From: Heliopora coerulea
Taxonomy: Eukaryota > Cnidaria > Anthozoa > Scleralcyonacea > Helioporidae
Direction of reading: 5' to 3'
NCBI GenBank assembly: GCA_030142905.1
Contig: JASJOG010000158.1
Span: 186,001-250,000 of the forward strand
Length of the DNA: 64,000 nt
Shown here: piece by piece, positions 915 to 58,165 of the stretch
How positions within the stretch are numbered: the first letter of the stretch is position 1
How the letters are laid out: every line of letters begins with the position of its first letter
The notes under the pieces: generated by a model
Seen by the model: only the letters and a program-made list of their open reading frames with translations
What the model was told of the DNA's origin: nothing
The model's database searches: none
Program-made: the position numbers and the translations under genes

Positions 915-3900
915 TTAAATGAGTTTGGTTCGTTCCTTCATAGTTTTCCGCTCCTTTTCTTTCTTCCACTTCAGGCTTTCCGTTGATTGCTTGTCTTTTC
1001 GAATTGCTTTATGAATGTATAAATGCTTGCCTAGTATTCGGTAATTCATTTCTTTTATTACAACAGTCATTATGTGCAAATTAATATTACTGTTTTACAT
1101 TAATTTGTTATTAGAGATCTTTTAAACTGGAAAAAAAATTACCCGTAGTTTTTATTCATTTGCTTCAAGACCATCTTTGCAATTTTCCACCCAAAACTTG
1201 TCTCTGTACCCAAAAACTGCACTGACACGTAGGAAGCCAATGTTCTAATATAATTCGTCTTTTTACAGGTACATGTTCTACAGTTACAAAGTTTATTAAA
1301 ATCTAACATGTGTAATAAAAAACTACGTTTACCTGAACTTTTAGTCATACTCATTTCTTCCTTAAATGCTTCCACTACCTCTGTATAAAATAAAAAAGGA
1401 GAATGTATGAACGAATTTTCGGAAATTTTTAATTTGCCTTAATAAATATCTTTTACTTTGTGGGTAAAGATTACGAATGTGATCCTCAAGTATGGTAAAT
1501 AACGAAATCTCCTTGAAACTTTACAAATTGAATATGGTCAACTACTATCGTTTTACTTTGGAACCTGCAGGTGTTCTGAATAAAGGTTATAACAGAAAAA
1601 GTCACATGGAACATACAAAATACAAAAATCTTGGACCGGGCGAATAAGTCCGTTGAAACGCTAAAAGGGCCAATCGAGAGAGTTGCATTATGCAAAACTG
1701 CAAATATACAAAATCATAACGAAACAACACATTAGACTGATATATCAGAGACAGCTTGAAGGAAACTTTCGCTATGAGAAATACTTACAATATAAGCCCA
1801 ACGTTTCAATACTTGAGTCTAGTGTTATCATCAGGGGTAAATGTGTTCGTCGACAGTAGCTTTATTAATATCAGCGTTGAGATGTTAACGTCAGTCAGGG
1901 TTGATTGTTGTCTGCCGTCCGCGTGTACGAATGAGTAGATCTCATTCACCTCTGTTAGTTGCGTTCTTAGTTCTATTTGTGTGCCTCGACTTTTGCCAAG
2001 CTCTCCTCAAACCCTTTGGGTCGGATGTAAGAACACGAGGCACGTTTTTTCCTTTTATATTCTCTGCTCAGAACACTTGACAATCCCGAAGTAAAACCGG
2101 GCTTGCAACAACTTTCATTATGTCATCTACAATACGTCCGCTTACCACTAAGATTTAGTTGATAGAACTATGTCTTTAAGGCTTAATTTCTCGGAAGCAA
2201 AATTTTAAAAAAAATTATCAAAGGATTACAGAAAGCTTACAAAAGATATACCTGTAGGAGGATATACCGATCTCACTTTAACTGGGACATCTTGAGCTTT
2301 GCAGACCACTGTTTTGTTGTAGCTGTTTGGTGCCTCCAAAACCATCTCGAAGTCCATTTCGTGATGACACTCGTTGCATTCGTGACATTTATTGTAAATT
2401 GAATATCGAAGTTCAGGCCACAATTCCCTCACCATCTTTGCAAAGATCTCGTGAAGACGTATGACAGCTTTCCACAGGCTCTTTATTTGGCCACTCTTTC
2501 CAATCCTGGCTGTAAATTCAATCGTGTCCGTTGGGAAATTATGCTTCGTTACACAGAATTTCACCTCATCTGCTTCATCCATATCATAAACTCCAAAGAA
2601 TCCTTCCTTCCAGTGAAACATGTAGTCCGAACCTTGATGGGAACGGACCATTTGCCGTTCAAATAGGCCAACAGGAACGCTGCTGTAAAATTTATACTCA
2701 CTTTTCGCTTCAAACTCGTCCTTGGATGCAGTTCTTGGCCATTTAGCGTCAATGGAAGTTGGACGAGCGTTTGGCATAAGTGCTGGAATTAACGTGTAGT
2801 TCTTGCCAATTTCTTTTCCTTCAATCTTTGCTTCTTTCACCGTCATACGATAACCGACGTCAAAATGATAAAGAAGAGGAGCAAGCTTCTTATAGTCTGT
2901 TTCTTCAGGAACTGCATCATACCAAATGCATCGTAGGAGGGACTCCGAAAGTAATCCACTTCCAATCAGTTCCTTCTTTTCTCTTTCAAACTTTCCGGCG
3001 TCCATGTTGCAAACTTTGAAATCGTTTTTGTACTGAAGGTGAGAATATAAATCGTGGTGAACGACATTCTTGATCAACATGATCAACCATTCAGGATCTG
3101 GAAACACAAAATCTCGAAGCTGTTCCACGCGTTCAAATCGTAAAACCTTTCCAAGAGTAACCAGATAATCAAGGACAGCGCGCAATGTCTCTCTTCTGCC
3201 AACATCTTTTTCAAATTCTTGATGGTGTTCACAAAACCACCTTTCCATCTCGTTAAATGTCAGGAACCGAGGGCGTTTCTTTTTTTCAATTTCTTCTTTC
3301 AAGGCTGGAAGTAATTTTTCAATTTCGACCCATAACGATGGAAGAGTGGTTTTCAGATGGGGAAACAAATCCTTGTCACTTCCAATTCGGAGCAGTTCCT
3401 CTCTCAACAAAATTACGTCACTTTCACCAAATACTTTCTAAAAAATGGCATGATAGAAAACACACAAAGGTGTGCCATTTTAACAAAACTTTTGCGGGGT
3501 GTTTTATTAGCACATCCAAGAGCGTCAAAAAACATGCCTTAGAGTTTAAAATAACTCAGAGCACAGAGGGGGGGGGGGATAGGTTGGGTCAAATTGACCC
3601 CACGCCTAGAAGAAATCAAAAAAGAAAGTACTATATTGAATTCAGATTTTCCATCACTGAAATAAAGGACTATTGCTCATGTGCTGATGCGCCATCAGTG
3701 GCTCTAAGTAAAATAAGATATGAAAATATGATCAAGTTTGCATTCTAATCTGGCAGCTTCCTTGTTCTAGACACAAAAAGATAACGTGCCATTAATGAGC
3801 GTGGTTTAACCTCAAAATGGTATCTCAGAGTACATATGGTATAAACTCATCATTCATGGAATAATGAATTAACTAGGTATGAAGGCATGTTTATAAACCT

Positions 3901-6900
3901 GCTATAAAATTTTGAGCTTGGTATTACCAGTATTTATTAATTTAAATTTTGTGTTGTTTTACTGTTTTGTTCATTTCATAAGTCCATACGGTGAGGTATT
4001 AGTGCATTACCATGAACTAGTTGGGCAAATAAAATGTCTCATAAAAAATCCTGTAAATTAAGGAATACAAAGCTTCATTCTGCCAGATAGTTAGTGAGGT
4101 TAGCCAAATCAATTTTCAACGGGAGGGTTTACCAACTCCTTTACCTCACCCACCAGGGCCAGAATTATCCCTACACAGCATTGTGAAAAACACACCTTGG
4201 CAGGTTACAAAACACAACATGAAAAGTTAAGAAACACACCTTGGTATATTTCAAAACACACTTTTAAATAGCACACCTTGAGGGCATACCTTTTATCTGA
4301 AACAAGGATTGTTAATTTAACACACCTTTGAAGTAAAAGGCACCTTTGCATAGGACACACCTGTTACATCAACGCTACCTTCAAACAACAACACACCTTT
4401 ACTAGTTGGTTTGCCAAGCTACAGGCCTCACTGAATTGGAATTATGAGTCAAAGGCAAAGCATCCATGTTCTGTTTCATGTTTCAATTTTTTCCATATTC
4501 ATACTCATTCTAATGGTTGTAAGGTTAAAAATAATCCTGCCATAACTATGCAAGTAAATGTGATTCATGACTTGTAGAAATGTGAAGAGCAAGTTGACTC
4601 CTGGCCCAAGACAAAATTAACAAGGTGACCATGTCCACCTTCTTAATTTAGACATGGCCACCTTCAACCACCCAAAAATTTAAGTTGATATTTTGTTTTA
4701 CTTTGGTTTTAGACAGATAATGTTGAGTTCAATGATCAACATCATTTGAAAGTGCTTCTTTGAAATTTTTTCACCGGCCTTTGTCATCAATTCCTGGTAA
4801 TGCCAAATGTTGCAACCCTCTCAGAGTTACATGTTCCAGTTGTAAACCATATTAACCAAGCTATCACTAATGAGCTTCATGTGGTCTGTGAAACCAATAT
4901 AGCTGCTGCTATCAAATCAAAACAAAACCTAAAATTAACACATCAACTAACACATCCATCACCACACATATTCCATTAAGTAGATAACTATTTGTTAAAC
5001 AAAACATCTTACAGTAAGCTGTGCTATATAACACACCTTAAGTCGCAGTGAACATCTCATCTTATGATTTATTTATTTACATGTAGCTTAAGGTGTGTAG
5101 AATAGCAATATTGAATGCATATTAAATTTCACACCTTAAGGTGCTTCAAATTAAACACCTTAGTTGGTTTGAAAAAGGGTTGCCAATGGATGTAGAAAAC
5201 CACATCAAGGCATGTTAAAAACTCACCTTGGTGAGTGGGAAAACACACCTTAATATCTGTGTCATAACACAATTTTGTATGGTGTGCTTAATTTTAGACA
5301 ATAACCTTCGCTAAAATGTGCACATGAGGAGACAAGACCATGTCACTTACTCTTGTAATTAGACTCAACATTTCGTCATATTTTTCTCCCGCAGATGCAA
5401 CAACAATTGCTGTTTCCGAGTTAGAGGGACTCGTTTTCTGATCTGATTTAGACACAAGGCTGTTTGGGAGTACTGGCCTCTTTCTTGTCGCTAACTCAAG
5501 CTTCTTAATTCGATTGATGTTGTAAGGATCCCTGTTATCAATCTGCTCTTTATCCCTTTTTATTGCCGCTAAATCAGCAGTTTCTTGTTTGGTAATTTCT
5601 TTCAACATATGCTCACATATACCTTTTACAATGCTCTTATCAACTCGGTCAGATTTTGTAGCAGCCACCATTATTACTGGCCGCAGTACAATGCTCTTTA
5701 ACTCATCAATCCACTTGCCAGCATTTTCATGATATGATTTATCAGTCATTTCATACGCTGACAAATCCACAACCAAAAGAAACAAAGAATGTTCTTCAAC
5801 GAAGTAATGGCTTACACTTTGGTACTCCATGTGACCACCGAAGTCCCAGATTTCTAGTTCAAGATCTTCATTCGTTGGATCGGGAAACCACTTTCTAACC
5901 TCAACACCTTCAGTCCTCTCCTCTGGTTCTGTCAACTTTGTCTGTCCCATCAATAAACTGTTGATCAAACTCGTCTTTCCAGCGCCAGAATTTCCAATCA
6001 CCTGCACTCTAAGCCGTTTAGAGTGAACTGTACCAAACTTGGCAATGTCTTTGAAATATTTCAGTATCGCACTAGGGTTGAGGCAGATAACTTGTGGTGG
6101 CTTACCTAGCAAATTGTCTTCAACGCCAAAATGCACATTGTTAGCGATTAAGGTGGCAAAACGTTCAGGCAATTCTTTTAGCTTGTTTGACCACATATTA
6201 CAGAAGGAAAGTCTAGGAAGTTCAAATATACCATTTGGTACATGATCGATTCCACAGTCGCTTAACCATATTGTTCTCAGTTGCGATGTAGTTTGGATGG
6301 AAAATTCTTTGCCACCAAAATTATTGCAGGAAAGGTCCAGATATTTTAAACTAATGCAATTTTCCAGTCCATCCGGGAACTTTTCAAGACCACACCCCTT
6401 CATATTCAGCTCCTTCAAATTCTTCAGACCAGTAATAGAAAATGGCTGCTTGCCAAGATCGTTGTTCCCCCAAAGGTCCAGATCTTCTAAACTAATGCAA
6501 TTTTCCAGTCCATCCGGGAACTTTTCAAGACCACACTCACTCATATTCAGCATCTTCAAATTCTTCAATCCACTAATAGAAAATGGCTGCTTGCCAAGGT
6601 CCTTGTTCTCATAAAGGTTCAGATCTTCTAAACTAATGCAATTTTCCAGTCCATCCGGGAACTTTTCAAGACCACACTTAATCATATTCAGCATCTTCAA
6701 ATTCTTCAGTCCAGTAATAGAAAATGGCTGCTTGCCAAGGTCGTTGTTCTCCGAAAGGTCCAGATCTTCTAAACTAATGCAATTTTCTAATCCATCCGGT
6801 AACTTTTCAAGACCACACTCACTCATATTCAGCTTCTTCAAATTCTTCAGCCCAGTAATAGAAAATGGCTGCTTGCCAAGGTCATTGTTCCCCGAAAAGT

Positions 6901-9763
6901 TCAGATCTTCTAAACTAATGCAATTTTCTAGTCCATCCGGGAACTTTTCAAGACCACACTCACTCATATCCAGCTTCTTCAAATTCTTCAGTCCAGCAAT
7001 AGAAAATGGCTGCTTGCCAAGGTCATTGTTCTCCCGAAGGTCCAGATCTTCTAAACTAATGCAATTTTCCAGTCCATCCGGGAACTTTTCAAGACCACAC
7101 TCACTCATATCCAGCTTCTTCAAATTCTTCAGTCCAGTAATAGAAAATGGCTGCTTGCCAAGGTCATTGTTCTCCCGAAGGTCCAGATCTTCTAAACTAA
7201 TGCAATTTTCCAGTCCATCCGGGAACTTTTCAAGACCACACTCACTCATATCCAGCTTCTTCAAATTCTTCAGTCCAGTAATAGAAAATGGCTGCTTGCC
7301 AAGGTCGTAGTTCTGACGAAGGTCCAGATCTTCTAAACTAATGCAATTTTCCAGTCCATCCGGGAACTTTTTAAAACGGCACTGACTCATATTTAGCTTC
7401 TTGAAATTCTTCAGTCCAGTAATAGAAAATGGCTGCTTGCCAAGGTCCTTGCTAAACCGAAGGTTCAGATCTTCTAAACTAATGCAATTTTCCAGTCCAT
7501 CCGGGACCTTTTCAAGACCACACCTACTCATAACCAGCTTCTTCAAATTCTTCAGTCCAGTAATAGAAAATGGCTGCTTGCCAAGGTCATTGTTCAGATC
7601 AAGGTCCAGATCTTCTAAACTAATGCAATTTTCCAGTCCATCCGGGAACTTTTCAAGACCACACCACCTCATAACCAGCTTCTTCAAATTCTTCAGTCCA
7701 GTAATAGAAAATGGCTGCTTGCCAAGGTCATTGTTCCTATAAAGGTTCAGATCTTCTAAACTAATGCAATTTTCCAGTCCATCCGGGAACTTTTTAAGAC
7801 CACACTCACTCATATTCAGCTTCTTCAAATTCTTCAGTCCAGTAATAGAAAATGGCTGCTTGCCAAGGTCGTTGTTCCCCCAAAGGTCCAGATCTTCTAA
7901 ACTAATGCAATTTTCCAGTCCATCCGGGAACTTTTCAAGACCACACTTACTCATATTCAGCATCTTCAAATTCTTCAATCCACTAATAGAAAATGGCTGC
8001 TTGCCAAGGTCCTTGTTCTCATAAAGGTTCAGATCTTCTAAACTAATGCAATTTTCCAGTCCATCCGGGAACTTTTCAAGACCACACTCACTCATATTCA
8101 GCTTCTTCAAATTCTTCAGTCCAGTAATAGAAAATGGCTGCTTCCCAAGGTCCTTGTTCTCATAAAGGTTCAGATCTTCTAAACTAATGCAATTTTCCAG
8201 TCCATCCGGGAACGTTTTAAGACCACAGTCCCTCATATTCAGCTTCTTCAAATTCTTCAGTCCAGAAATAGAAAGTGGCTGCTTGCCAAGGAAGAAATTG
8301 TTAAACGAAAGGTGCAGATCTCCTAAACTAATGCAATTTTCCAGTCCATCCGGGAACTTTTTAAGACCACACTCACTCATATTCAGCTTCTTCAAATTCT
8401 TCAATCCAGTAATAGAAAATGGATGCTTGCCAAGGTCGCAGTTCTCACAAAGGTTCAGATCTTCTAAACTAACGCAATTATCCAGGCCATCCGGGAACTT
8501 TTTAAGACCACATTCACTCATATTCAGCTTCTTCAAATTCTTCAATCCAGTAATAGAAAATGGCTGCTTGCCAAGGAAGAAATTGTTAAACGAAAGGTGC
8601 AGATCTTCTAAACTAATGCAATTTTCCAGTCCATCCGGGAACTTTTTAAGACCACACCTACTCATATTCAGCTTCTTCAAATTCTTCAATCCAGTAATAG
8701 AAAATGGATGCTTGCCAAGGTCGTTGTTCCCCCAAAGGTCCAGATCTTCTAAACTGACCAGATCTTCAAGTCCTTCCGGAGAAGCATTTAAGTTACAACT
8801 GAAAATCGTAAGTCGCTTCAGTTTCACAAGCTCACGAACTGAAACTGATTGGTCCTGGAAATCATTGAAATACAACCCAAGTATCTCCAGCTCCTTCATC
8901 GTGGTTATGGCTGAAGGAAAGGTCGTCAATCCGCAGTTGTACAAGACAAGTTTTCGTAGATTTAAAACATTGCATGATAACTGGAAATGATCACCTATCG
9001 GATCATCAAAGATGTATAAATCTTGAAGGTTGTGTGCTTGATCCATTTGTGTTGGTAAAATCTTCTTTCCATTGGCACATAACAAGAACTTTTCAAGCTT
9101 TGACATATCCTTAAGCGAAATTTCGCAGCATTCTGATGAAACGTCAAGCTGAATTACTTCACTGTCTGACGTTTCTAAAGCAATATCCTGCAAGGAAATT
9201 TCAGGGAAACTTTCAATGCATATTTCCCATCTTCTCATACCAACATTTACAGTTAACGTGTCTCCTGGTTCCCCACTCGCAATAATCAGTTCTTCTAAAT
9301 TATTGACAGTGTCCCTGTCAAGACCATTAATTACACCAGTTTCATAATGTCTCAGTGTCAGTCGCCGCAATTTCTTTTTGCTTGAAGGGAAAAGTGGATC
9401 TTGCTTCAATACTTTGCATCGTATGTCCAGACGAATGAGACCATGTTGATCCGTCTCGAGCTGACAGGTCTTCCACAAGTATTTATTGTATTCAGATCTT
9501 TCATAAGCCGAGTTGTCGTCTTTGCACTCGTCAAATCCGCAAATTGAAATATGGCGACCCAAATTACCGACGTTACTTTCCAGAAATCGCGGCAAACTTT
9601 GATGAAGAAGTAGAATTTTCTTGACTTGTGGATGATTTAAAACTTCGGAAGGAATAGACTTTTCCGAATCATCGGCAGCTGTAAGGTCAATCACGTCTCC
9701 ATACTGATCATCGGTTGAACGGTTGACAACGTTTGTGGCAAAAAAACTTTCGCTCATTTTCAA
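915..9763 (-). CDS. LRR-Roc-COR (ROCO/MFHAS1-like) protein, four exons
   Basis: Proposed exons, transcribed right to left: 9763-5351, 3437-2252, 1380-1333 and 1030-915. Every junction has GT-AG, and the phases match (0, then 1, then 1), giving about 1920 aa. Residues 1-280 are a divergent N-terminus containing VIDLTAADDSE. Next come leucine-rich repeats with 17 near-identical 47-48-residue units. The Roc GTPase follows: P-loop GNSGAGKTS near residue 1257, switch-II DFGGH near 1304, and TKSD near 1369. The second exon is a COR domain (LPSLWVEIEKLL, FVFPDPEWLI, YTLIPALMP). A 16-codon exon and a lysine/arginine-rich 38-residue tail end the protein. No kinase domain follows COR, as in MFHAS1-type ROCO proteins. 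Roc-COR proteins are GTP-regulated dimers and the LRRs probably bind a ligand. The start is the first Met of the long open exon; extra 5' exons cannot be excluded. The tail exon is supported by its paralogue at 42117-42223. Confidence 0.85.
1381..2251 (-). other. ROCO intron 2, shared with the second locus
   Basis: The intron between the COR exon and the 48-bp exon. It aligns over most of its length with 54109-55330, including noncoding stretches such as GGAACCTGCAGGT and GTGTTCGTCGACAG, so the two loci come from one duplicated segment. No gene inside. Confidence 0.8.
3438..5350 (-). other. ROCO intron 1, rich in an ACACACCTT motif
   Basis: A phase-0 intron of about 1.9 kb with donor GTAAGT (minus strand, 5350-5345) and acceptor TTTTTTAG ending at 3438. 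It has no coding potential of its own. The plus strand carries more than ten irregularly spaced copies of ACACACCTT or close variants (for example near 4190, 4230, 4325, 4390, 5030, 5240), and a run of G near 3572. Similar motifs recur at 56530-56620, beside the other COR copy. Confidence 0.75.
6368..8770 (-). repeat. 17-unit LRR-coding tandem array (141/144 bp)
   Basis: Fifteen units of 141 bp and two of 144 bp account exactly for these 2403 bp, all in frame in the ROCO first exon. Each unit encodes two leucine-rich repeats around LENCISLEDL, DLGKQPFSITGLKNLKKL and CGLEKFPDG. The framework is nearly invariant. Changes cluster at the residues before N or C in the two strand motifs (YEN, WGN, YRN, DLN, RFS, RQN, SGN; SEC, SKC, RWC, SRC, SQC, IKC, KGC). 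A silent marker, CAATCCACTAATAG, occurs only near 6566 and 7976, exactly ten units apart. A divergent eighteenth unit follows and closes the array. Confidence 0.95.
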
Positions 9764-12260
9764 CCCCTCTTCTTATTAAGACGTAATAGTCATTATCACA
9801 GGCTGAATTTTAACGTTATCACCGATCTTTGCAAAACTCTATGGGCACCGTGAAGGAAAAATGCTGATTTTGGATTTAATCCTGTAAATGCAAAAGAGGT
9901 GTAGTCTGATATTTCAAATGAAAAAAAAAGTCGACTAACATAAAATCAACAGACAAACGTTAAATCTATTTAAGATTAAAACAGACAAACGAGAAACGTC
10001 GCCAGAAATTAAACTTTTTACATTGTACGGAATGTCTAGATTTAAAGAAAGAAGTGTTACGCTGTATTAGGAAGTATTAGGAAATATCAGGATCTGTGTG
10101 GAACGTACATTATGTACTTGTACACGAATGGACCAACACGGTTCTAAAACAATTGTTGATCGTCCACAATAAATAAACACTGGGATTTTGGTGCATGACC
10201 ATTTATCATCTCCCTTCGTTCTCCAAAAATTGGTTTTTTATACCAAGGAGTCTTTCAATGTCTGCCTCTGGAGAATCAAGCATTGCTTGGTTTTTGTCAT
10301 TTAACACGTAAACATGCACTGCTGCTCACATAAAAGTAGTCTGTGAACATGCAGGTTCCTTGGTTGTGTGGTGGTAGAACAATAGTCAATATGGTTTCTT
10401 AGTGATTTGAAAATCTTTTGGTTGTTCACGAAGTTATCTACGAAGTCGAGGTTGTAAATTACCGGCATTTAAAGCTGGTCGAGTATTCAATGCTGGGCTT
10501 GAGTAAATTGCTTCATTTTCGGTACAATAGCCTACCGTTTCCAATACCATATAGTAATTTCAAATATCAGTATTAATGGCTTAAAGTTCGTACTTTTTGA
10601 TACCAGCAACAAGAGTAACTTACCGTTCTATAGGAGAACTTAAGCAAAATCTGTCGTATATCAAGACTGTAAACTAGACACACTCCTACAAGTATAAAAA
10701 TAAATAATATAGGTAAAACTTCTTTGCATGATTACCTGAAAATTCAATAAAAATGCCCAGTTCACTGGAGTTTTCCCTGGTCTGTTGTCAGTTCGTTTCT
10801 TTTAATCTGAAATAAACAGGTAATGATACCGTCTAATCTTAACGGTTAATATTTTTCAACCTCTTTTTTGAGTGACATTAAAATTCAATCCATGCATTTG
10901 GAAGTGATATAATTCAACTTCCCGCTTTTTCACGCCTGTACATTTTAGAAGTTTTTCAGACCCACACTTCGCCTTAATCCTCGGTAAAACTTTTGTCGGT
11001 CTTTCTTGCATTAAGCACTTATATAATTCCAGTTTTGCCTTGTAACTAGTCTTTATCGTTTTTATGAAAGTAGATATTCGTTCGGTAAAAACTACAACGC
11101 ACGTTTCCATTTAAATTGTGCTATGTTGACAATTTAAGAACAAATATAAAGGTTGTAAATATTCTCGACGAGAGACCTAAAAGACATCATACCTCTACAT
11201 TTCTACTTTTTTTTTGTTTGATTTTGAAGCTAAATTGTTTTACAAAATAAACCCAAAGCCACATGGTTTGAAACTTCTTTAAAACCAACAATACAACTAT
11301 TACTCTGCAGTTGTCGTTTGATATGCTATTAAGTCAACTCAAAGAAATTCTTTGCAAGCATTTTTATTTCCCGGTATAAGATTGAAAAGAATGCTCAAGA
11401 GGGTTCCTCTTAGTTTCAAACCTATTTCATCTCATTTATAACTTTATTTTCCATCAGTAAACAAAATATGTTCCATATATGGTATATAAATCTATTTCTT
11501 CTGAAACTTCTCAGTAGCTAAGGGCAACGTCTGCTTTCATCCCTTTGCGCTCATGGTTTATTATGGTCAAAGTTTGCTTTAAACAGATAGAATATGACAT
11601 ATGGCTATAATAGACTTTTGAAAGTTAATATTTAGGTAACGTTAGTGAGATTGACGTTAAGAATAAAGTTTTACAGAAACGACAAACGTACAACTAAGTT
11701 TTCATGACATTAAAACTAGTATTATATGAAAGAATTTTGCTAGGTAGATTTATTTCAGTAACGGTTTCATCCCTACCTAGTGTAATCAAAATACATCCAT
11801 TCGAAGAAGCTCTACGTCGAAAGCCAAGAAGTTTTCATTTGTTTACCTTTGTACAACTAACCGGCTTACCTTAGATAAAAAAGACAAGCATTAAGCAATG
11901 ACAAAGGTGAAACAAAATGCACTGTCGAGGTAATCTTATCAAGGCTTGATCCAAGTCATTACCTGAAACAAAAAAAGCAGTTTAAGCTTTTGGCATGGAA
12001 AACAATTGACGATCAAAAATTAATCAAATACACAGCAGTTGTCATTGCATGCCATCACGTCAATTAGTTTCCTTGTCACTTTCAATAAATATTGAAAAAC
12101 TGGAACGAGATATTAAGTGGTAACTGAGATACTCAAACGGTACTTAGAACTGGGACTTATTAATAGGCAGAACGCTAACTTTCCCCCAAGTTTTACAGAG
12201 TATAATATTAAAACATGAGATAGGTCGTTTCGAATGTATCCCCTTATTCACGGAAAAACG
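9764..12260. other. Gene-poor region upstream of the ROCO gene
   Basis: No coding region can be supported. The longest frame, 10856-11110 on the minus strand, has no recognisable domain. The ROCO promoter and any 5' UTR exons should lie here, but no core promoter element stands out. Confidence 0.5.
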
Positions 12261-27916: not shown

Positions 27917-28160
27917 AGTCCGATGAGACGCTCTAACCATTGAGCTACCAAGACTCAGATGGTGAGCTAAGGTGCAAGTTCGACATATGTGCGACCTAAG
28001 CAGAAGCCACCATATGTTAATAATGATATAACATATGGGTTATATCATATTTATGATGGGTTATATCATGGGTTATTCAGAAGGTTGCAGGTTTGATCCC
28101 CGTCTGGGGCTCACAAATCGTTTTTCTGAGGACAGAGCTTGACGATCGTTCATCTATCTT
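27917..28160. mobile_element. tRNA-containing fold-back element, rearranged
   Basis: Carries the minus-strand tRNA-like half (GCTCTAACCATTGAGCTACC), the shared spacer (GCAAGTTCGACATATGTGCG) and, after a short duplicated ATGGGTTATATCAT block, the plus-strand B-box half (GGTTTGATCCCCGTCTGGGG) and the terminal block ending in CGATCGTTCATCTATCTT. One terminal arm is missing, and no flanking duplication was found. Confidence 0.65.
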
Positions 28161-28443
28161 CTCAAAGTATTATTTTCCTTGTTTTAATGAACATTCTGAG
28201 TGACGATGACTTTGAAATAGAGTCGAAATATCACTGTTAGAAACTTTTCCACTAAATTTATGGCTCAAATCTTGAGTTTTCAGGATGACTCTCTTTACCG
28301 AAAAATATAAAGCATACCCAGCCTTTTGAAAAGTTTTGAAAACCGAATTACAAAATTACAATGAAAATGACAATGACATTGATGATGATAATGATTATGG
28401 TGATGATAACAATGATGATAATAACAATGTGGATGAATCATAC

Positions 28444-41785: not shown

Positions 41786-42116
41786 AAGCTGCAATTTCTA
41801 ACAAAACAAAAAAGTATATAAAGATCGACTAACATCCACGTCAACAAGCACCATTTTATCTTTCCTGAAGTGCCTCTTAACCCTTTCTTTTCCACAATCA
41901 GTTACGCATACCAACTACTGACGGACAGTAATACCCCGTAGATAAATGAATGTAAAAAATGTTTCATATAACGAAAAAACCTGAACTGGTTTAACCCTTT
42001 CCTGTCTGAAACATCTCCCCTTGAAGATTGAAATCGCCTGGCATTAGCCAGAGGAATATTAAAAAGTCGGGTAAGTAACGGGAAGGGTTAAAAAAATTTG
42101 TAATCATTAAATGGGT

Positions 42117-42223
42117 TTAGTTCGTTCCTTCATAGTTTTTCCCACCATTTTCTTTCTTCCATTTCAAGCTTGTCGTTGATTGCTTATCTTTTCGAATTGC
42201 TTCACGATAGTTTAAATGCTTGC
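42117..42223 (-). CDS. ROCO-family C-terminal tail exon (second locus)
   Basis: The acceptor AATGCTAG precedes a 35-codon frame (KHLNYREAIRKDKQSTTSLK and on) that stops with TAA. It matches the tail exon of the first locus at 915-1030 in position, phase 1 and sequence (KHL, AIRKDKQST, SLKWKKE). The donor of the last phosphorylase exon at 52027 ends in phase 1 and fits it. The implied intron is about 9.8 kb and full of transposons, so linkage to that gene is inferred. Confidence 0.6.
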
Positions 42224-43756
42224 CTAGCATTTTTATTTTGTAAATGTTTATTTTTTGCACAAAACACGTTCTTTGCATAATAGGCGCGACAGTGGACGAA
42301 CTAATTTCCAGCGGAACCACATAGAGCATCAGATGTAATTTGACGTTACTCTGGGCTAAGCAGTTCCGAACGCTGCTTAGAAAGTTACTACTCATGACTC
42401 AGGGCAAAGTTTGCGTGAAACTATGCCTGGTGTCACTGTGTGTTAAATTCCTGAGCAGAAAGCTGTCAACAAAAAAACTGAGTATGTTTATTCTCAGCTT
42501 CAAAGAAAAGGTCAATACTTGTCAACATTTGTGTCAATTTTTACAATACACAGTTCACATCACCAACACCGCTAGCTCTGTCCTCTGAAATTTTACTAAT
42601 TCGGGACGGAATTAAAAAATTACGTCCCCCAGTTTAACAATTGTTGACGTATTTCTGAACAATATAATTGTCGTTTGACAATCTAACACTATATTAAGGG
42701 AGAGAGAGGGTAATTTTTAACTGGTGAATATTTTTGTTCATATTACATCATCTCATTTTGTATCTCACAAAAGGAGATTTCTTTAAAAAGTCGATAATAA
42801 TCCCAAGCGAACGCTCCTTTTTCACCACGGTATTACTGTAACCATGTAGCTACTACACAAAGTGATAAAAAGCTAGTTGTGGCACATACACTTAGATATG
42901 GAAGTTAAAGCAATTAGTATATAAATGGTAGCGAAAAGAAAGTTACAAACAAAGATTATACAAGTGTCCAAAATTACTTCAAACCAAAGGCAGTAATAAA
43001 ACTGTTTTCAATTGACGTTGGTATCAAGTACTTAGGGAGTTCACCCCATCTCCCTGCTTCCTATGGTCATGATATATACAAAAAACTATTTGTATAAACT
43101 AAATATCGAAATACTAAATAGTTGATAATTAGTTTCTAATGTAGACTTTCAATACAACAAAACTAGTCGCTCACTTGACAAATTGCTTTTTCCATCATTT
43201 GAGGTAGACGCTTTTTCAACATCCGCGATATCCCGCCCTCTCTGGCTTCTGAGGTTCTTTTCCAAAATGGAAAAGGTACTGGTCATTTATCAATATATAC
43301 AATATATTGATAAATGACCAGTTCACGATCTCTAAGATGAGAGCAAAGACGTACTTCTCTTATTTTTTTCTTGTCTTACGTCTCAGCAAGGAATGAGTTA
43401 GATGTCAAAAACGTCTCCCTTCCACAGTGCTTATGATTTATGTTCCGTGAGTTAAACAGTTTAAAATTAAGATAGCTTAATTTTATATTTCGACTTTAAA
43501 TATATTTTCTCACCAAATGCATTGCTTTCTTCTTCAGTCGACGGAACAGTATGGTCAACTCCAATTAGATCTTGTTCACCCTGGCTTCCGCTCAGTGTTG
43601 TAAAGCAAAAGAACTATGTCATTGATGTATGGTCAACTCTCTTTCTTTCCGACTCAACAGCCATTATATGATTAGCCAGATGGATAATGGTAAATTAAAT
43701 CTTGCGAGGTGAGGTGAGATTACCACCACACACAACCAAACAGAGAATCAGATATG
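42224..43756. other. No gene; one short hairpin
   Basis: Noncoding as far as I can see. A hairpin of about 20-base arms (CTGGTCATTTATCAATATAT) lies at 43279-43322. Sequence near 42340 resembles the flank at 43745-43768 and 44200-44230, suggesting old duplication. Confidence 0.5.
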
Positions 43757-48319: not shown

Positions 48320-50139
48320 AACGAAATGGTTATAAGGGATCGGTATCAAGGGAAGCAATGGGATCTCCATCCCCACGGTATTTTGTCATTCGTGAAACGC
48401 TAGTCATTTCTCGAGCTGCTTCAGGCAGTGTCTCTTCAGGCATGCCTTGATTGTGCCGGATTGCCTGGGAGTCTACTGAAGTTCGATGCACCACGCCCGA
48501 AGCTTTGATGGTTAATTAAGTTGGTTGTTTTGAACCTTTCTCTGCCTTAAATCTCTGGAGTGCATTCACAGTTGATTCTTCCTGGTCGCACGGGGACGTG
48601 TATTGTTTTTCTTGACATTTCTTGCACCCCCTTGATCGGTACTCTGACGCCAAATGCCCGACTCTCGAATAATTGAAGCGCATTCTGTTGCGTCGTAATA
48701 TGGATTTCCTGATTGCCACATCCAACAATTTCGTACAGTGGTAGCTAAAATGATCTGTTAAGTTGCAATACGCACATGTTTTTCGTTTGGTGTTTTTCTT
48801 CATCAGTTTTTCCGAAAAGTAAGTTGTCTCTTTTCCGTGGCCAGTATCACGGGAACTCATCCTTGTTTCTAGCATTCTTTTCATCCTCAATTCGCAACGG
48901 GTTCTTCTCCACGTACATATTTTCGTAAGTTCTCAACTAACTCTTCTAACCTACATTCCTCCTAATAGTTATCTTTCTGAACAAGGATTTCGCGAACCGG
49001 GCCAAGCTTGTCCATCAAAGTGTAAACGGTGCTTTGGGCAGTGACCAGCTTCTTCATAGCAATCGGGGTTCGGACTACCCTGGCAAGCTTATTATAGAAT
49101 TCGTGAACAATATTCAGCTTATGAATGCTTGTGATTGTAGGTAGTTCCTTTAGTTCTTTGATTAACGCCTTATGTAACAAGGTATCTTTGCCGTGCGTTT
49201 GTTCTAGGATTCGTTTTGCCTCTCTATATCCATCCACCATCATCATCATCATCATCATTATCTTCCATTTTATGTCTGTGGTTCTCTTAAACTAAGTTCA
49301 AGAGGTTAGACATTTGATGACAGTTCTCCAACTAATTCTGTTCATGGCTTCTTCTTCGTCAACTCCAATGCATTTAAGGTCTTCTTGGACATATTTCTTC
49401 CAACTTTTCTTTGGTCTTCCTCGTCCTCTATCGTACATATTTCTATATCCATCCATCGTGTGCGGCAATCCCATGAAATCTTCTCTTGGTTTCCCTTTGG
49501 CCAGTCCTTGTAAATAATTAAATTTACTTATCTCCGCGATCCTCGGTCCATCCAGTTGTGTAGAGAACTGATTCCAAAAGCGCAACCAGGAAGTTATGGT
49601 ATACTTCTGGAGTTTGACTGTTTGCGGTGAAGATGAACTTGATTTCTCCTTGTTTCGTTCTGCTCGGCTTTCCTTCAATTGTTTTCCGAGGTCAAATTTT
49701 CTTTCATACCACTCTTCTTCTCTTTGCTGTTGTCTAACAGACGCCTCCTCTATTTTCTTCTGCTGTAGTAATTTGTATTTCATCTGCCCTTATTCATTCT
49801 TTGTTGAATGTATAGCTCTTGTTCCAATTCTTCTTGAGCTTCCCTTGCATTGATTTTTTCTATCTGTTTTTTTAACTGAGCACGCGCCTCTCTGAATGGC
49901 TAGATTGATCCCCTACATTTTGCTGTCCACTGTTTGATACACTCAAAATCCTTTTCTAACTCCATTAGATGATCTACTGTTGCATCCTTTGCCTTCTCAA
50001 ATCGCCGAACCAATTCTCCAAGCTGTTCTTATGCAAATGTTGTAACACCGGTGTCTCCGTCGACGGTATTTTCCATAATCTCTTTGAGACGAAGTTTCGC
50101 AACAGCGAGGTGTTCGTCAAACTTTTCCTCTGAAGCCAT
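48320..50139 (-). pseudogene. BEL/Pao retrotransposon gag, broken
   Basis: Starts near 50139 (MASEEKFDEHLAV), continues through the DUF1759-type region (SWLRFWNQFSTQL, KFNYLQGLAKGK) and ends with zinc knuckles (CAYCNLTDHFSYHCTK, then GHLASEYRSRGCKKC). The second knuckle has RFNYSRVGH instead of the usual CF-C spacing. Stops and frameshifts occur, including a TAA soon after TGVTTFA, and a 205-bp retrotransposon is inserted at 49237-49441. No protease, RT or integrase follows. Confidence 0.75.
49237..49441 (-). mobile_element. 5'-truncated non-LTR retrotransposon with 14-bp TSD
   Basis: Flanked by TCTATATCCATCCA at 49223-49236 and 49442-49455. The minus strand encodes only the last 45 or so residues of an ORF2 (RGRGRPKKSWKKYVQEDLK), then a stop, 3' UTR and a (GATGAT)n-type tail. 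It sits inside the BEL gag, so the gag was already there. Confidence 0.8.
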
Positions 50140-51930: not shown

Positions 51931-52026
51931 CTCAAAAGATCGTCTAATATTTACGTCAATAAGCGTCGTTTAATCTTTCCTAGAGTGGCTCTTAAAGAAA
52001 TTAATGATCGTTGACAATAATTTTAC

Positions 52027-54108
52027 CTGTTTCTAGATGCTGCAAGTTTATCCCTTGATAGTTGGGCCAATCCTTCAAAATATCCGGCTCTTTCAAGATA
52101 TGCTTAACAACTGACGCTGCCATAACACTTGCAAAACGTTTCCGATCTTCAGTTTCTGGTTCACTACCATCAACATAATGAGAGATTCCTTTAACGACAA
52201 CCCATTCTACTTCACATTCAAAAGCTGCAGCAAATACCCCTGAAAACAAAAGCCTTGTATAAAAACCTTCACAGTAGCTGAGCACGTGGTTGTTGAGACA
52301 TAACTAAGGTATCAAGATCAAGACTATTTTTGCTGGGTTAACCCACCAATGGAGGAAAAACAGTATACCACTGGCTATGCCTGTGCACACTTTTCCGTCT
52401 TCGAAACAGCCTTTCCTTTTATTTGCGTTCTTTCACCCATTTGCTTACTCAGTTTGGGCTAAATTGTGATGTCTGAGGGTATATAAGTGGTACCAGTACT
52501 AACAAAAAGGAACAACTGATACAGTTTCTTTGTCGCTGTATATCGGCTACAAATTGTTCTACTTCATCCCATTTGGTTCCTACCAACCAAAAAAATCACT
52601 ACTGGAACTAAGTTCGCGTTCACATTCCGTTACTTTAGTTACTGAATACAGTTAAACAAACGATAAAATAAACGAACTAAATGGTCAAAAACACATCCGG
52701 AAAGCTGACATTATTATTCAATTTTGATGTCACCTTAGCTTGGTTCGCTACAGGCAGAAACCTACAACCACATAGCGTGAATTCCTTGCGTCATATCCAC
52801 ATTCACTGGTTTTTATTCATTTAGGAACTACGTAATTTCTTCAGATTGGATTGCCGAGAGAGTGTGGTTGGCGGGTCAATATTTTAGTGTCCTGGAACGT
52901 TCAAGGGACTTGGATCGTAGGCGGTTTAGAACCGACCCATAAAAGAGCCCCGATTCCCTTTGTAGAGAGGAAAATAGGAACGAGGCATGTGTTGAGTAAG
53001 GGTGGACCCACAACACTTTTTATGCCCTTGGCTCACTAGCGGCTCACGTCGGCATCGTGATAAATGACTTCAGTTTTCTTTTGCCTAACCAATAACTGAC
53101 TTCAGTTTTCCTATGACAGCGAGAAATACCAAAGCATTGGTTTGTGTGATCCACCTCTGCCTTCAACTTTGGCAGATTACACAAACCTCGGTGTTGGTAA
53201 TTCTCCCTGTCATATTCAACCTCACGCACGCACTGTTAAAATGTTTAACTTGCTCATATGTCCTCACCTCGCCCTTCAAGTTCGATTGCAATGGCTTCAG
53301 GAAACTGTTTAAGAAGTTCTTCACATTCTTTAGGGCAATTCTTCAGTTCTGGGCCAGTTAAAATTACTGCATCGCGATGGACCTTCACTTCACGGGATTC
53401 TGGATCTTTCAGTGGTGGTTTCCAACCGTCGGCAGCGCATCTCATAAGACGTCGAATACTCTTACTTACATTCAATATGTTGCCACGCCATTGTGGTCGA
53501 TCGTTGATGGTTTTCTTTTCGGCATATGTGGTACGTTTTGCAGATATGACCACATCTCCGACCTTCGTCTTCTCTTTATTCAGCCCACCACAACACCCTA
53601 CACCAAACACAACTTTCGGTTTCAAAATTTCAATAGCAGTTCTCGCAACATTCTGCGAGGCACTGGCTTGAGTGGAGCCACGACCACATCTAACCAAACA
53701 TGTTTTCACTTTCCTCACGCCATCACCAATTTGTCCAAAGTATACCATCCCGAGACCTATGATGGGGTTCCTGAAGCCATTATTGAGATACGAATGACAA
53801 CTCAGGAATTCATTGTCGTCCACAGTCAACAACAGGACATCTGCAGGGAGCTGAATATATTCCCGGAATTTGTAGGGTACCTGTAAGTCTTTCAGCTTCG
53901 GAACTGCAACGCTTAGTTTTGGAAGATTTTCAGAACGCTTTGTCGGTCGCACGGTTGCTACAACGTTACAAAAAAGTATTAACGAACAATTCCTTCAAAT
54001 CTTTGACCGACAGTTACAGAGTTTGTTAAAATGTAACTAGTGTAATAATAAACTGTTTACCTGAACTTTTAGTTGTACTCGTTTCTTTTTCAAATGCTTC
54101 CGCTACCT
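52027..54108 (-). CDS. PNP_UDP nucleoside-phosphorylase domain exons of the second ROCO locus
   Basis: Exons 54108-54061 (48 bp), 53957-53268 and 52239-52027. All have GT-AG ends, and all three introns and both outer borders are phase 1. The first exon (VAEAFEKETSTTKSS) matches 1333-1380 of the first locus. The other two encode a nucleoside phosphorylase/nucleosidase fold: IIGLGMVYFGQIGDG, CLVRCGRGSTQASAS, VVFGVGCCGGLNKEKTKVGD, then across the junction ELEGRGVFAAAFECEV and VVVKGISHYVDG. The ribose-binding Glu of the MEG-type motif is kept. The Asp usual in GISD-Y is His here. The family cleaves or phosphorolyses nucleosides. The frame is open throughout. Whether a promoter still serves it is unknown, since the upstream COR exon is wrecked. 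Confidence 0.8.
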
Positions 54109-54179
54109 CTGTATAAGATGAAAAAGAAGAATGTAAGTACGACTTTTCGGAAATTTCAAATTTGTCTTAATGTTTTTTA

Positions 54180-54547
54180 ATGATGTTATTGTGGTAGCTT
54201 AGTAATTATGTTCTTAATACGCGCGCTTCCAAGCTGTTCTCTCAGAAAAACTTTCTGAGTCCCTGACGGTAATCGAACCCGTAACCTTCTGGTACAAAGA
54301 CTCAGATGGTGAGCAATGGTTAAATATCTATATCAGATAGACGACATATCGAGACTTGCAGACTGGCAGTACATATGTCTACCATTTATACGAACCAGTA
54401 CACAAATTTAACCTTCGCTCACCATCTGAGTCTTTGTAGCTCAATGGTTAGAGCGTCTCACCAGCGATCAGAAGGTTACGGGTTCGATTCCTGTCAGGGA
54501 CTCAGAAAGTTTTTCTGAGAGAACAGCTTGAGAGCGTGCGTATTAAG
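54180..54547. mobile_element. tRNA-containing fold-back element
   Basis: Arms CGCGCTTCCAAGCTGTTCTC and its inverse-like GAGAACAGCTTGAGAGCGTG flank two opposed tRNA-like units: minus strand near 54262-54310, and plus strand near 54428-54502 with A box TAGCTCAATGG and B box GGTTCGATTCC. Near-identical AATGTTTTTTAA (about 54166) and AACGTTTTTTAC (about 54549) could be an aged 12-bp duplication. It lies in an intron of the second ROCO copy and is absent from the first. Confidence 0.75.
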
Positions 54548-55319
54548 AAACGTTTTTTACCTTGTGAGCAAAGATTTCGAATTTGATCCTCAAGTACGGC
54601 AAATAACAAAATCTCCTTGAAACTTTACAATTTTGAATATGTTCAACTACTCCCGTTTTACTATGGAACCTGCAGGTATTTTGAATAAATGTTATAACAG
54701 ATAAATTCATATCAAACATACAGAAAGCAAAAAATCTTGGACCGGACGAATAAGTCCGCTGAAACCCTAAGAGGAGCCAATCGAGAGAGCTGCATTATAC
54801 AAAACTGCAAGTATACAAAATGTAAACGAAAGAAGACATTAGACTGATATCTCGGAGACAGCTTGAAAGAAACTTTCACTATGAGAAATACCTAAAATAT
54901 AAACCCAACGTTTCAAGTGTGTTCGTCGACGGGAGCTTTATTTATGTCAGCGTTGAGATGTTAACGTCAGTCGGGGTTGATTGTTGTCTGCCGTCCGTGA
55001 GTAACAAGGAATAGATCTCATTCATCTCTGTTAGTTTCGTTCTTAGTTTTATTTGTGCGCCTCGACTTTTGCCAAGCTCTCCTCAAACCGATGGGGTTGG
55101 ACGTAAAAACACGTGGCACTTTTTTCCTTTTATATTCTCAACTCAGAACACTTGAAAATCCCGAGGTAAAACCGGGATTGCAAGAATTTTCTTTATGTCA
55201 TCTACAATACGTCCGCTTACCACTCAGATTTAGTTGATAGAACTGTCTTTAAGGCTTAATTTCCTATAGGCGAAATCTTAAAAAAAAAATTACTGAAGGA
55301 TTACAAAAAGATTACAGAA

Positions 55320-56480
55320 GATGTACGTGCTGGAGGATAGACCGATTTCTCTTTATTTAGGCCAGCTTGAGCAGTTTTGTTGCAGACAACTGTTTCGCGG
55401 TAGCTGTTTGGTGCCTTCAAAAGCCTCTCTAAGTCCATTTCGTGATGGAACTCGTTGTATTGGTGACATTTATTGTAAATTGAGTATCGAAATTCAGGCC
55501 AAAATTCCCTCACCATGTTTGCAAAGATGTACTGAAGACGATGATAAATGATAAAGCATGTAAGCAAGCTTTTCAAAATGAGGTTTTTTAGGGACTGCAT
55601 TATACCAAATGCATTGCAAGAGGGTCTCTGAGAGCAATCTACAATCAATCAGTTCTTTTAAGATAGATGAATGATCTTCAAGCTCTGTACTCAGAAAATG
55701 ATTTCTGAGACCCAGACAGGGATCGAACCCGCAACCTTCTGATGACCGGTGAGACGCTCTAACCATTGAGCTACCGAGACTCAGATGGAGAGCCAAGGTG
55801 CAAGTTCGACATATATGTGCTACCTAAGCGGAAGCCACTATACATTAATAATGATGAAGACAGTTTATGATTTTAGAAATTTGAGAGCTTGGATATATCT
55901 TAAGATAGATGAATGATCTTCAAGCTCTGTACTCAGAAATCATTTTCTGAGTACAGAGCTTGAAGATCATTCATCTATCTTAAGATATATCCAAGTTCTC
56001 AAATTTCTAAAATTATAATCAGTTCTTTCTTCTCATTTTTAAAGTGTATAGTGTCCACGTTGTAAACTTTGAAAACGTCTTTGTACATAAGTTGAGAACG
56101 TAAGTCGTGGCGAATGACATCTTTGATCAACATGATGAGCCACTGGGGATCTGGAAACACGAAATCTTGCATCTGTTCTATGCGTTGAAATTGTAAAAGC
56201 TTTCCAACCTTACGAGATAAAGGATTACAGAGTTCAGAGTATCCTTCCTGTCGGCAGCGCTCTTGAAAGTTGGAATATGTTCACAAACCCATTTTTACAT
56301 CTCGTTAAATGTCAGGCACTGAGGGCCTTTCCTTTCCTTCATTTCTTTTATCAAGGCCGGCGATAATTCTTCAATTTCGACCCATGATGATGGAAGGGTG
56401 GTATTCAGATGAGGAAACAAAACTGTGTGACTTCCAATTCGGAGCAGTTCCTGTCTCGAGAAAATTACACCATTTCCACC
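55320..56480 (-). pseudogene. Wrecked COR exon of the second ROCO copy
   Basis: Aligns with 2252-3437. The right part keeps QELLRIGSHTVLFPHLNTTL and LTFNEM, then hits a TAA where the first copy has Glu. Later pieces (RLLSETLLQCIWYNAV; MVREFWPEFRYSIYNKC; VYPPA) are interrupted by a fold-back element at 55659-56016 and by loss of several hundred bases. The donor after VYPP is degraded. The LRR-Roc exon that should precede it is absent; Gypsy sequence begins at about 56.7 kb. Confidence 0.85.
55659..56016. mobile_element. tRNA-containing fold-back element inside COR, 12-bp duplication
   Basis: Flanked by identical AATCAGTTCTTT at 55647-55658 and 56017-56028. The intact first locus has the matching uninterrupted site at about 2965-2980 (AATCAGTTCCTT), which proves insertion. 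The left half carries one minus-strand tRNA-like unit (about 55700-55785, B box GGGATCGAACCC inverted). The right half is a long hairpin of the terminal block. Confidence 0.9.
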
Positions 56481-56685
56481 AGCCTCACCTGTAGATTGAG
56501 CAGGTCCATGCACTCTCTAAGAAAATACATGTTCGAAAACACACCAAGGTGTTCCATTTTCACACAACTTTTCGGGGACGCTTTAGTTAACAAACCTTAG
56601 AGTGTTAAATAACACACTTTAGTGTGCCAAAAACCCAGTACAAAGAAAACGTCACAGATTACATGCCATGGTATGCCTTGCCAGA

Positions 56686-56739: not shown

Positions 56740-58165
56740 TGAAAGCAATTACCCAAACAAATCACGCTATTGTGCTGAATAGAATCACGGCAGAAACCGA
56801 GTACGACGCAAAGCTGCGGCACCTGAAACAAGTCATGCAAACGGGCGTTTAGAACAAAGCCAACCTCGTTCTAAAGCCGTACATTGACGCACAAGCAGAG
56901 TTGTATGAATTGGAAAACATTATCTTCCGACTGGACAAGATCATCCATCCTGAGAACCTTAGAACCAAGATCATACAAATCGCGCACAAGCAAGGGCATC
57001 TCGGACTGTCAAAAACCAAAGAAATGATTCGACACAAACACTGGTGGCCAAGCATGAACTTACAAATCAAAGAATCAGTTAAGAGATGCTTTGAATGCCA
57101 AATCTCAACAAATGCGAGGCACACACAACCTGCAAAGATGACTGAACTACCAGCCAGACCCTGGACAGCTGTGGAAATCGACTTATGTGGAGCATTTCCA
57201 AACGGAAAATACGCCCGCGTGGTTACAGACCAGTACTCCAGGTACCCAGAAATAGAATTTACCACCACTACATCCTTCGAAGGCACCAGAAAGAAGCTAA
57301 AGAAAATCTTCTCGACACACGGCATCCCCCAAACACTCCAAACCGACAATGGACCACCATTTAACTCGCTAACCTTTGAGAAATTCGCGAAAGAATCTGG
57401 CTTCAAGCACCAACGCATAACACCTTGTCATCCGAAAGCACAAGGCCAAGTGAAGGGATTTAATAAGCTCATAAACAAGACCATGGCTATATCAAAGCAT
57501 GACCGCATCGATCCTGAAGAAGCTACCTACAATATGCTATAAGCATATAGAAGCACCCCACACCCAGCAACGAAATTCCCACCGTATCAGCTACTAATGC
57601 ATCGGCAGGTGAGGACGAAGTTGGACCACTTCCCAACAGAAACACAAGATAATGACAAGGAGGTGAGAGAACACGACTCACAGTACAAGAGAAAACGTAA
57701 AGAATACCATGACAAGCGACCCAAGACAACGAACATACTATGACGCCAGGCGATGTCGTCATCGTAAAATGTGAGAACAAACGCAAAGGACAAACACTAT
57801 ATGAACCATACATATACGTTGTCACCGAGACCCAAGACTCGCAGATCACAGCAAAGAAGATTAAAGACGGACGAACAATCTTGCGGAACGCAACTAAACT
57901 CAAACCTCTACGAGCAGCAACAGACCAAGAAATGGAGTCAGAGACAGCACAACATGGTGAAGACTAATTCACCGCCCTACCTGACACTACAACCTCACTA
58001 GATACTTACACCACACCAAGTACCAGTACCTCAAAGCAGACAGAACAGAGCAGCATCGGAGAACAACCCACAGACGACATGGCGCATCAACAAGAAGCAG
58101 AACCAACAGTGCCACAGCCCAGACAATCTGAACGCTTGAAAAATAAACACACATGAGACTGTTAG
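56740..58165 (+). pseudogene. Ty3/Gypsy integrase region, decayed
   Basis: Begins in the RNase H-integrase linker (AKLRHLKQVMQTG). The zinc-binding H2C2 module follows (HKQGHLGLSKTKEMIRHKHW, CFECQI), then the integrase core with both Asp motifs (AVEIDLCG, LQTDNGPPFN). The third catalytic residue is lost: the usual GQVE motif reads GQVKGFNKL. A TAA follows YNML near 57540 and a frameshift lies near 57725. The C-terminal GPY-like part (MTPGDVVIVKCENKRKGQ) and a basic end (RQSERLKNKHT) are recognisable. No LTRs were identified. Confidence 0.85.

Follow-up and report, generated by a model that had tools for sequence, protein, structure and literature searches.

The TIR domain belongs to a nucleotide-cleaving family, and ATP nucleosidases with eukaryotic homologues were reportedly described by Rousset et al. 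in Cell in 2023. PNP_UDP modules are known to hydrolyse ATP and to act in immune cell death (PMC12881547), and PNP_UDP has been described as an effector on immune-type proteins (PMC12881547; meeting report PMC9966839). The bacterial LRR-Roc-COR conflict proteins (AP-GTPases) carry at least 24 variable C-terminal domains, and PNPase is an effector on other architectures, with bDLD3 and TRADD-N; PNPase on Roc-COR is not among the bacterial domains named in that part of the text, and the full set may include it (PMC8195603). In sea anemones, NG1 is described as an LRR-Roc-COR-TIR_2 protein (COR being detected at a low threshold) with transcripts in all actiniarians examined, and its authors propose domain shuffling (PMC5094078).

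We analysed a stretch of 64,000 nucleotides from Heliopora coerulea (“the window”) that contains two ROCO loci, all of whose exons lie on the minus strand. The original prediction for this DNA was that a PNP_UDP cassette had been swapped into the second of these loci, yielding an LRR-Roc-COR protein with a C-terminal nucleoside-cleaving domain, and that this combination was without an established description. For Roc-COR-PNP itself, no description was found in literature searched by title and start of abstract (most subscription journals lie outside this coverage); LRR-Roc-COR proteins with variable C-terminal domains have been published (PMC8195603, PMC5094078).

The proposed plan of the locus is that of the bacterial AP-GTPases (LRR, Roc, COR and then an exchangeable C-terminal domain; PMC8195603), but here it lies in animal DNA, arranged in exons and in a relic copy. 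Like NG1, it would join an anthozoan LRR-Roc-COR to a domain of a nucleotide-cleaving family; NG1, however, has TIR and is transcribed, whereas the window has PNP on a broken copy (PMC5094078). The immune ATP nucleosidases share with the window a PNP_UDP effector domain, which is also matched by a PN-superfamily effector model in PADLOC; the window domain differs from them by a His at the catalytic Asp position, and ATP cleavage by it is putative.

A ROCO Gene and Its Decayed Duplicate

Locus 1 carries the successive parts of a ROCO gene. Its LRR-Roc exon (5351..9772, with a putative phase 0 donor after 5351) lies in an open frame from 9772 to 5294 and matches LRR families and Roc (E = 3.3e-17) in Pfam. 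The COR exon (2252..3437) is open as well, matches COR-A (E = 2.7e-9) and COR-B (E = 2.5e-6) and shares 62% identity with P0027, a predicted LRR-Roc-COR protein; Roc is thus followed by an intact COR, on two exons of one strand. Further downstream are a 48-bp exon (1333..1380, phase 1-1) and a basic tail exon that includes the stop codon (915..1030), with an intron of 302 bp (1332-1031) between them. The original prediction had placed these two exons (1380-1333 and 1030-915), the intron and the corresponding exons of locus 2 (54108-54061 and 42223-42117) correctly. The junction between Roc and COR (exon end 5351, exon start 3437) reads as phase 0, and the one that leads from COR to the 48-bp exon as phase 1. 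Skipping of the COR exon would therefore lose the frame, and not all borders of the whole gene are phase 1.

Inside the LRR exon of locus 1, a tandem array with a unit of 141 bp (47 residues) extends from 6331 to 8755 (17.2 copies, 91% match). We take this array to be a repeat sensor that was expanded or homogenised recently.

Three blocks are duplicated between the loci: 1439-2464 and 54543-55544 (83.6% DNA identity), 1280-1443 and 54010-54171 (85%), and 849-1083 and 42039-42282 (78%). Judged by these blocks, locus 1 and locus 2 are true duplicates. The COR exon of locus 2 (55327..56520, with an approximate start) is disabled and was recognised by homology to locus 1 alone; Pfam scans of its pieces 56298-56516 and 55304-55648 gave no match. 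The relic has an in-frame TAA nonsense codon (56297-56295) and has lost a single base (1 bp) in its 5′ part; the alignment puts a second such deletion close to the junction of a large one, at 55545, where about 400 bp were lost (bases 2465-2862 of locus 1 are missing). It is also interrupted by a palindromic repeat (55659..56016, no strand assigned) with a tRNA-Thr called by ARAGORN at 55707-55780; this insertion is bracketed by direct repeats of 12 bp, at 56028-56017 and 55658-55647. A retroelement-type integrase fragment with Integrase_H2C2 and rve matches (56853..57542, plus strand) lies just 5′ of the relic.

Differences between the relic and the COR exon of locus 1 are nearly flat over the three codon positions (0.221, 0.187, and 0.238) and pairwise dN/dS is 0.58, values that fit relaxed constraint on the locus 2 copy, as would be expected. 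A tblastn search with the LRR-Roc exon of locus 1 against 10001-64000 (E ≤ 10, with a positive control run) found neither LRR nor Roc for locus 2. As assembled, then, the locus 2 COR exon is a pseudogene that no Roc was found to precede in that range, and locus 2 now cannot encode an LRR-Roc-COR-PNP protein, contrary to the working protein that had been proposed.

For the intron that separates COR from the 48-bp exon (1381-2225 and 54550-55300), the two loci show 88% identity (d = 0.128), and dS between the COR exons is 0.385. That the COR exons are more diverged than the adjoining intron perhaps reflects gene conversion or a mosaic duplicate.

PNP_UDP Exons, Their Borders and Residues

The PNP_UDP exons lie between the 48-bp exon of locus 2 (54061..54108), which is open, phase 1-1 and homologous to its counterpart in locus 1, and a copy of the tail exon (42117..42223) located 9.8 kb 3′ of them and homologous to the locus 1 tail. 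This position, with duplicate blocks on both sides, bears out the original prediction. Homology to locus 1 ends at 54010, 52 bp 5′ of PNP exon 1 (53268..53957, open, phase 1-1). PNP exon 2 (52027..52239) ends at a putative GTAAAA donor (GTAAAATT); if this donor is not used, the frame continues for seven residues past the split codon to a stop at 52003-52001.

Every border of the cassette, including its internal intron, had been predicted to be phase 1. This holds on the 5′ side and for the internal intron, where relatives align in frame across the join of the two exons, so that its phase is well supported. It is uncertain on the 3′ side, where the donor is a guess, an in-frame stop lies just beyond it, and the tail copy has one extra base relative to locus 1 and ends in a different frame. 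The 3′ border is therefore unproven, and with it the proposed phase 1-1 symmetry of the cassette. The three gene models with PNP after COR (P0037, P0040, and P0005, see below) stop soon after the position that matches the end of PNP exon 2. Just after the stop that follows this exon there is a 61-bp block (51935..51995, no strand assigned) that shares 80% identity with a stretch 3′ of the tail copy (41820-41880).

No disablement was found across the 903 bp of the PNP exons. With four or five disablements distributed evenly along the 2115 bp of the COR exon plus PNP, the probability that PNP would escape every one of them is 0.108 or 0.062, respectively; the open frame is thus weak evidence of selection and argues weakly against decay of the PNP exons as well.

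Joined, the two exons match PNP_UDP_1 in Pfam (E = 2.2e-14; 53.9 bits against a cut-off of 25.1), which places the domain in this superfamily. The main solved relatives in the PDB are chains of MTA/SAH nucleosidase (best E = 3.9e-8 with a single sequence and 9.8e-12 with an eight-row profile), and in PADLOC the domain matches the PN-superfamily effector (E = 2.9e-10) as well as PDC-M60C (E = 8.3e-12), a profile that comes without a description. A scan of genome contigs with a profile of the PNP alignment yielded one weak bacterial locus (23% identity) among 49 matched stretches, and when viral contigs were scanned with the COR exon, none of the 35 matched stretches proved to be a relative.

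In MTA/SAH nucleosidase, we take the Glu pair (ExE) to be the ribose site and an Asp to be catalytic. We compared these positions in 124 rows, namely the window and 123 domains from 118 proteins with a long PNP match (out of 132 collected proteins). Both Glu residues are kept in the window, in columns that are Glu in 114 and 115 of the 124 rows, and the catalytic Asp is replaced by His, so that the domain falls short of the full residue set of an MTA/SAH nucleosidase-like enzyme. The Asp column holds Asp in 52 rows, Ser in 30, Arg in 20, His in 13 (including the window), Gly in 5, Cys in 2, and Asn and Tyr in one each. As far as this alignment indicates, loss of the Asp is common among coral PNP modules, and the window domain should not be assumed to be active as an enzyme. 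Of 75 conserved columns it deviates at 14, and by this share it ranks fifth among the 124 rows (the median count is 4); the higher shares belong to two P0001 domains (19/78 and 17/76), P0005 (15/75) and one P0031 domain (14/72). In P0031, from Stylophora pistillata, a caspase domain comes after two PNP modules.

Predicted Roc-COR-PNP Proteins in Other Anthozoans

We searched for related proteins (E ≤ 1e-3) among candidates bounded by length. The PNP region of a composite query matched 26 proteins and its COR+PNP region 23, while the COR+PNP part of P0037 matched 135, of which the best 120 were listed; about 8000 candidates were scored in the COR+PNP and P0037 searches. Every organism-named protein among the matches listed is anthozoan. 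Most of these PNP modules sit on NLR-type proteins, NACHT being also present in 107 of the 118 PNP-bearing proteins among the matches listed (precomputed Pfam annotation).

Three of these 118 proteins, all gene models, have PNP after COR. P0037 and P0040 come from Oculina patagonica (LOC144640814 and LOC144655634), lie on contigs of different length and are 85% identical over COR-PNP; both unite Roc, COR and a C-terminal PNP in one predicted protein, as the window copy does not, its COR being broken and its Roc not found. P0005, from Paramuricea clavata, has a Roc that is below the cut-off and lacks the N-terminal part; its structure prediction (pLDDT 36.3, pTM 0.26) was too poor for use. The PAH/glutamine-rich part at the start of P0037 could stem from the merging of two gene models, and the recurrence of the Roc-COR-PNP part in P0040 suggests that the join of COR and PNP is real. 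Other arrangements also occur: PNP precedes TRADD-N and Roc in P0020, and P0043 combines DED with two PNP modules, which BLAST recognised, and with part of a Roc that scores under the cut-off.

At gene-model level, Roc, COR and PNP therefore do occur together in other genomes, the reverse of what the original prediction had named as evidence against itself. The architecture that it suggested seeking among cnidarian proteins, LRR-Roc-COR-PNP, was matched in gene models as to Roc, COR and PNP and not, among the matches listed, as to LRR. The Oculina and Paramuricea proteins follow the predicted order of Roc, COR and C-terminal PNP, but their chassis is of the Death type rather than LRR, and the Oculina PNP also belongs to a different subgroup. 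Among the matches listed in the protein searches, none of the LRR-Roc-COR proteins bears an intact PNP; the frames of the predicted LRR-Roc-COR proteins P0027-P0030 end at or just beyond COR and cannot reveal PNP exons downstream. Gene models in other anthozoans thus support PNP as an exchangeable C-terminal domain on predicted Roc-COR proteins.

The position after COR was compared in 13 Death-type Roc-COR rows. It holds Death in seven (P0042, P0044, P0045, P0046, P0057, P0066, and P0103), GT4 in one (P0047), PNP in three and no Pfam domain in two (P0041 and P0048). P0041, from Oculina, has a COR 83% identical to that of P0037, lacks PNP and ends near the point where the PNP of P0037 starts. 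In coral-type Roc-COR proteins, the post-COR position thus looks like a variable slot for Death, GT4 and PNP in the predicted proteins.

In a tree of the 124 PNP rows, P0037 and P0040 group together (100/96) within Oculina PNPs, nearly all of them NLR-borne. Supports for this nesting are 99/91, 97/86, and 100/99, with one inner fork at just 88/30. P0005 falls with the octocoral P0001 domains (100/100). Read in the simplest way, these branch supports suggest that PNP met Roc-COR in at least two separate joinings. The window domain has a long branch (1.35) and no firm placement; it is 41% identical to P0037 and 44% to P0005, and its closest relative among the collected proteins is the Pocillopora NLR P0113 (49%; the maximum was 47% in another alignment). 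In these comparisons it is no nearer to the PNPs of Roc-COR proteins than to those of NLRs.

In a tree of 18 COR rows, locus 1 and P0027-P0030 group together with a support of 100/100, at a wide distance from the Death-type chassis. By this placement, a deep split divides the LRR-type chassis of locus 1 from the Death-type one, which bears PNP elsewhere. Nine of the 15 inner branches of this tree are open, and switches of the C-terminal domain are for this reason not countable on it.

Origin of the Locus 2 Arrangement

We consider locus 2 to be a decayed LRR-Roc-COR duplicate in which a two-exon PNP_UDP module lies, in matching phase 1, in the intron after the 48-bp exon, and whose COR has been destroyed (probability roughly 0.6). 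The module, of a kind mostly NLR-borne among the coral proteins found, would have come into the intron 3′ of the 48-bp exon, and with its matching phase PNP could once have been spliced onto the 3′ end of COR. The order of events may also have been the opposite, with PNP ancestral and lost from locus 1, so that the difference would reflect either a gain in locus 2 or a loss in locus 1. Point changes, the repeat insertion and the deletion would then have destroyed the COR exon while the PNP exons stayed open. In the whole protein, binding of a ligand by the repeats might have altered the Roc GTPase and the dimer state of COR, and this change could have activated or clustered the C-terminal nucleosidase-fold domain, which would have cleaved purine nucleotides or nucleosides and halted the infected cell. 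The immune role put forward in the original prediction remains an inference.

The PNP exons could instead stem from another gene, for instance an NLR-type PNP, as a fragment that landed by the ROCO relic without ever being spliced to it. The prevalence of NACHT among the PNP-bearing proteins listed is in line with such a source, as are the NLR P0113 as nearest relative by identity and the resemblance of its start (MSETVRTEK) to the start of the PNP exon (SATVRPTK). Against this, PNP exon 1 lacks an early start codon (the earliest in-frame Met is residue 86 of the spliced 48-bp and PNP1 piece) and its acceptor phase suits the 48-bp exon 103 bp upstream. Moreover, five PNP-NLR proteins (P0032, P0008, P0113, P0013, and P0116), together with P0031 (caspase-PNP) and P0040 (DED), match 10001-64000 over the PNP exons only (E ≤ 0.01). 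An NLR, caspase or DED gene that might own the PNP exons was thus sought in this range and rejected, no NACHT, caspase or DED part being detected at E ≤ 0.01. We regard a landed fragment as unlikely. A present-day short gene is more doubtful still: it would start in the stub of COR-B (open frame 55648-55301) and run through the 48-bp exon into PNP, encoding a nucleosidase-like protein without Roc. The 3′ stub is indeed open up to a donor that retains its GT, it joins the 48-bp and PNP exons in frame, and PNP is free of disablement, but the stub is short and has no Pfam match, and with His in place of the catalytic Asp the enzyme may be inactive. For locus 2 as a working LRR-Roc-COR-PNP gene there are the matching phases and homologous flanks, and we give it very little credence: the broken COR rules it out unless the assembly is wrong here, LRR and Roc were not found in the window, and the COR exon could not be skipped in frame.

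The reading of locus 2 as a decayed duplicate that received a PNP module can be set within a broader idea, which we hold tentatively, at somewhat under even odds. Coral Roc-COR proteins may be a second modular immune chassis beside NLRs, in which the post-COR slot exchanges Death, the GT4 glycosyltransferase, TIR and an ATP-nucleosidase-type PNP with NLR genes by exon exchange, on both Death-type and LRR-type chassis; the window would then hold a fossil of an LRR-type exchange. If it is true that coral Roc-COR proteins and NLRs swap effectors at a fixed position, a GTPase-switched immune chassis would be common to animals and bacteria, beside the ATPase-switched NLRs. The Oculina trio, with Roc-COR proteins that have and lack PNP and a PNP nested among mostly NLR-borne ones, makes the swap testable. 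Locus 2 looks like what is left of such a domain swap, and fusions of a similar kind are predicted among the proteins of other corals. If this reading is true, locus 2 would illustrate the decay of such a fusion.

Five open frames from the stretch that separates PNP exon 2 from the tail copy were scanned against Pfam and one matched (DUF1759, 49301-49789, E = 4.5e-7), so that the notion of a stretch rich in mobile elements here was mostly unsupported. Elsewhere in the window, open frames match DUF4371 (23370-25208), HTH_Tnp_4 (32508-33083) and YqaJ with PHD (33828-35228, PHD being just under the cut-off); together with the DUF1759 frame and the integrase fragment (56853-57542), these are probably mobile-element genes. 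The palindromic repeat that broke the COR relic belongs to a family with copies at 1-510, 17440-17910, 27900-28200, 54211-54549, and 55659-56016, and ARAGORN calls tRNAs in three of these repeats (17495-17568, 54430-54503, and 55707-55780).
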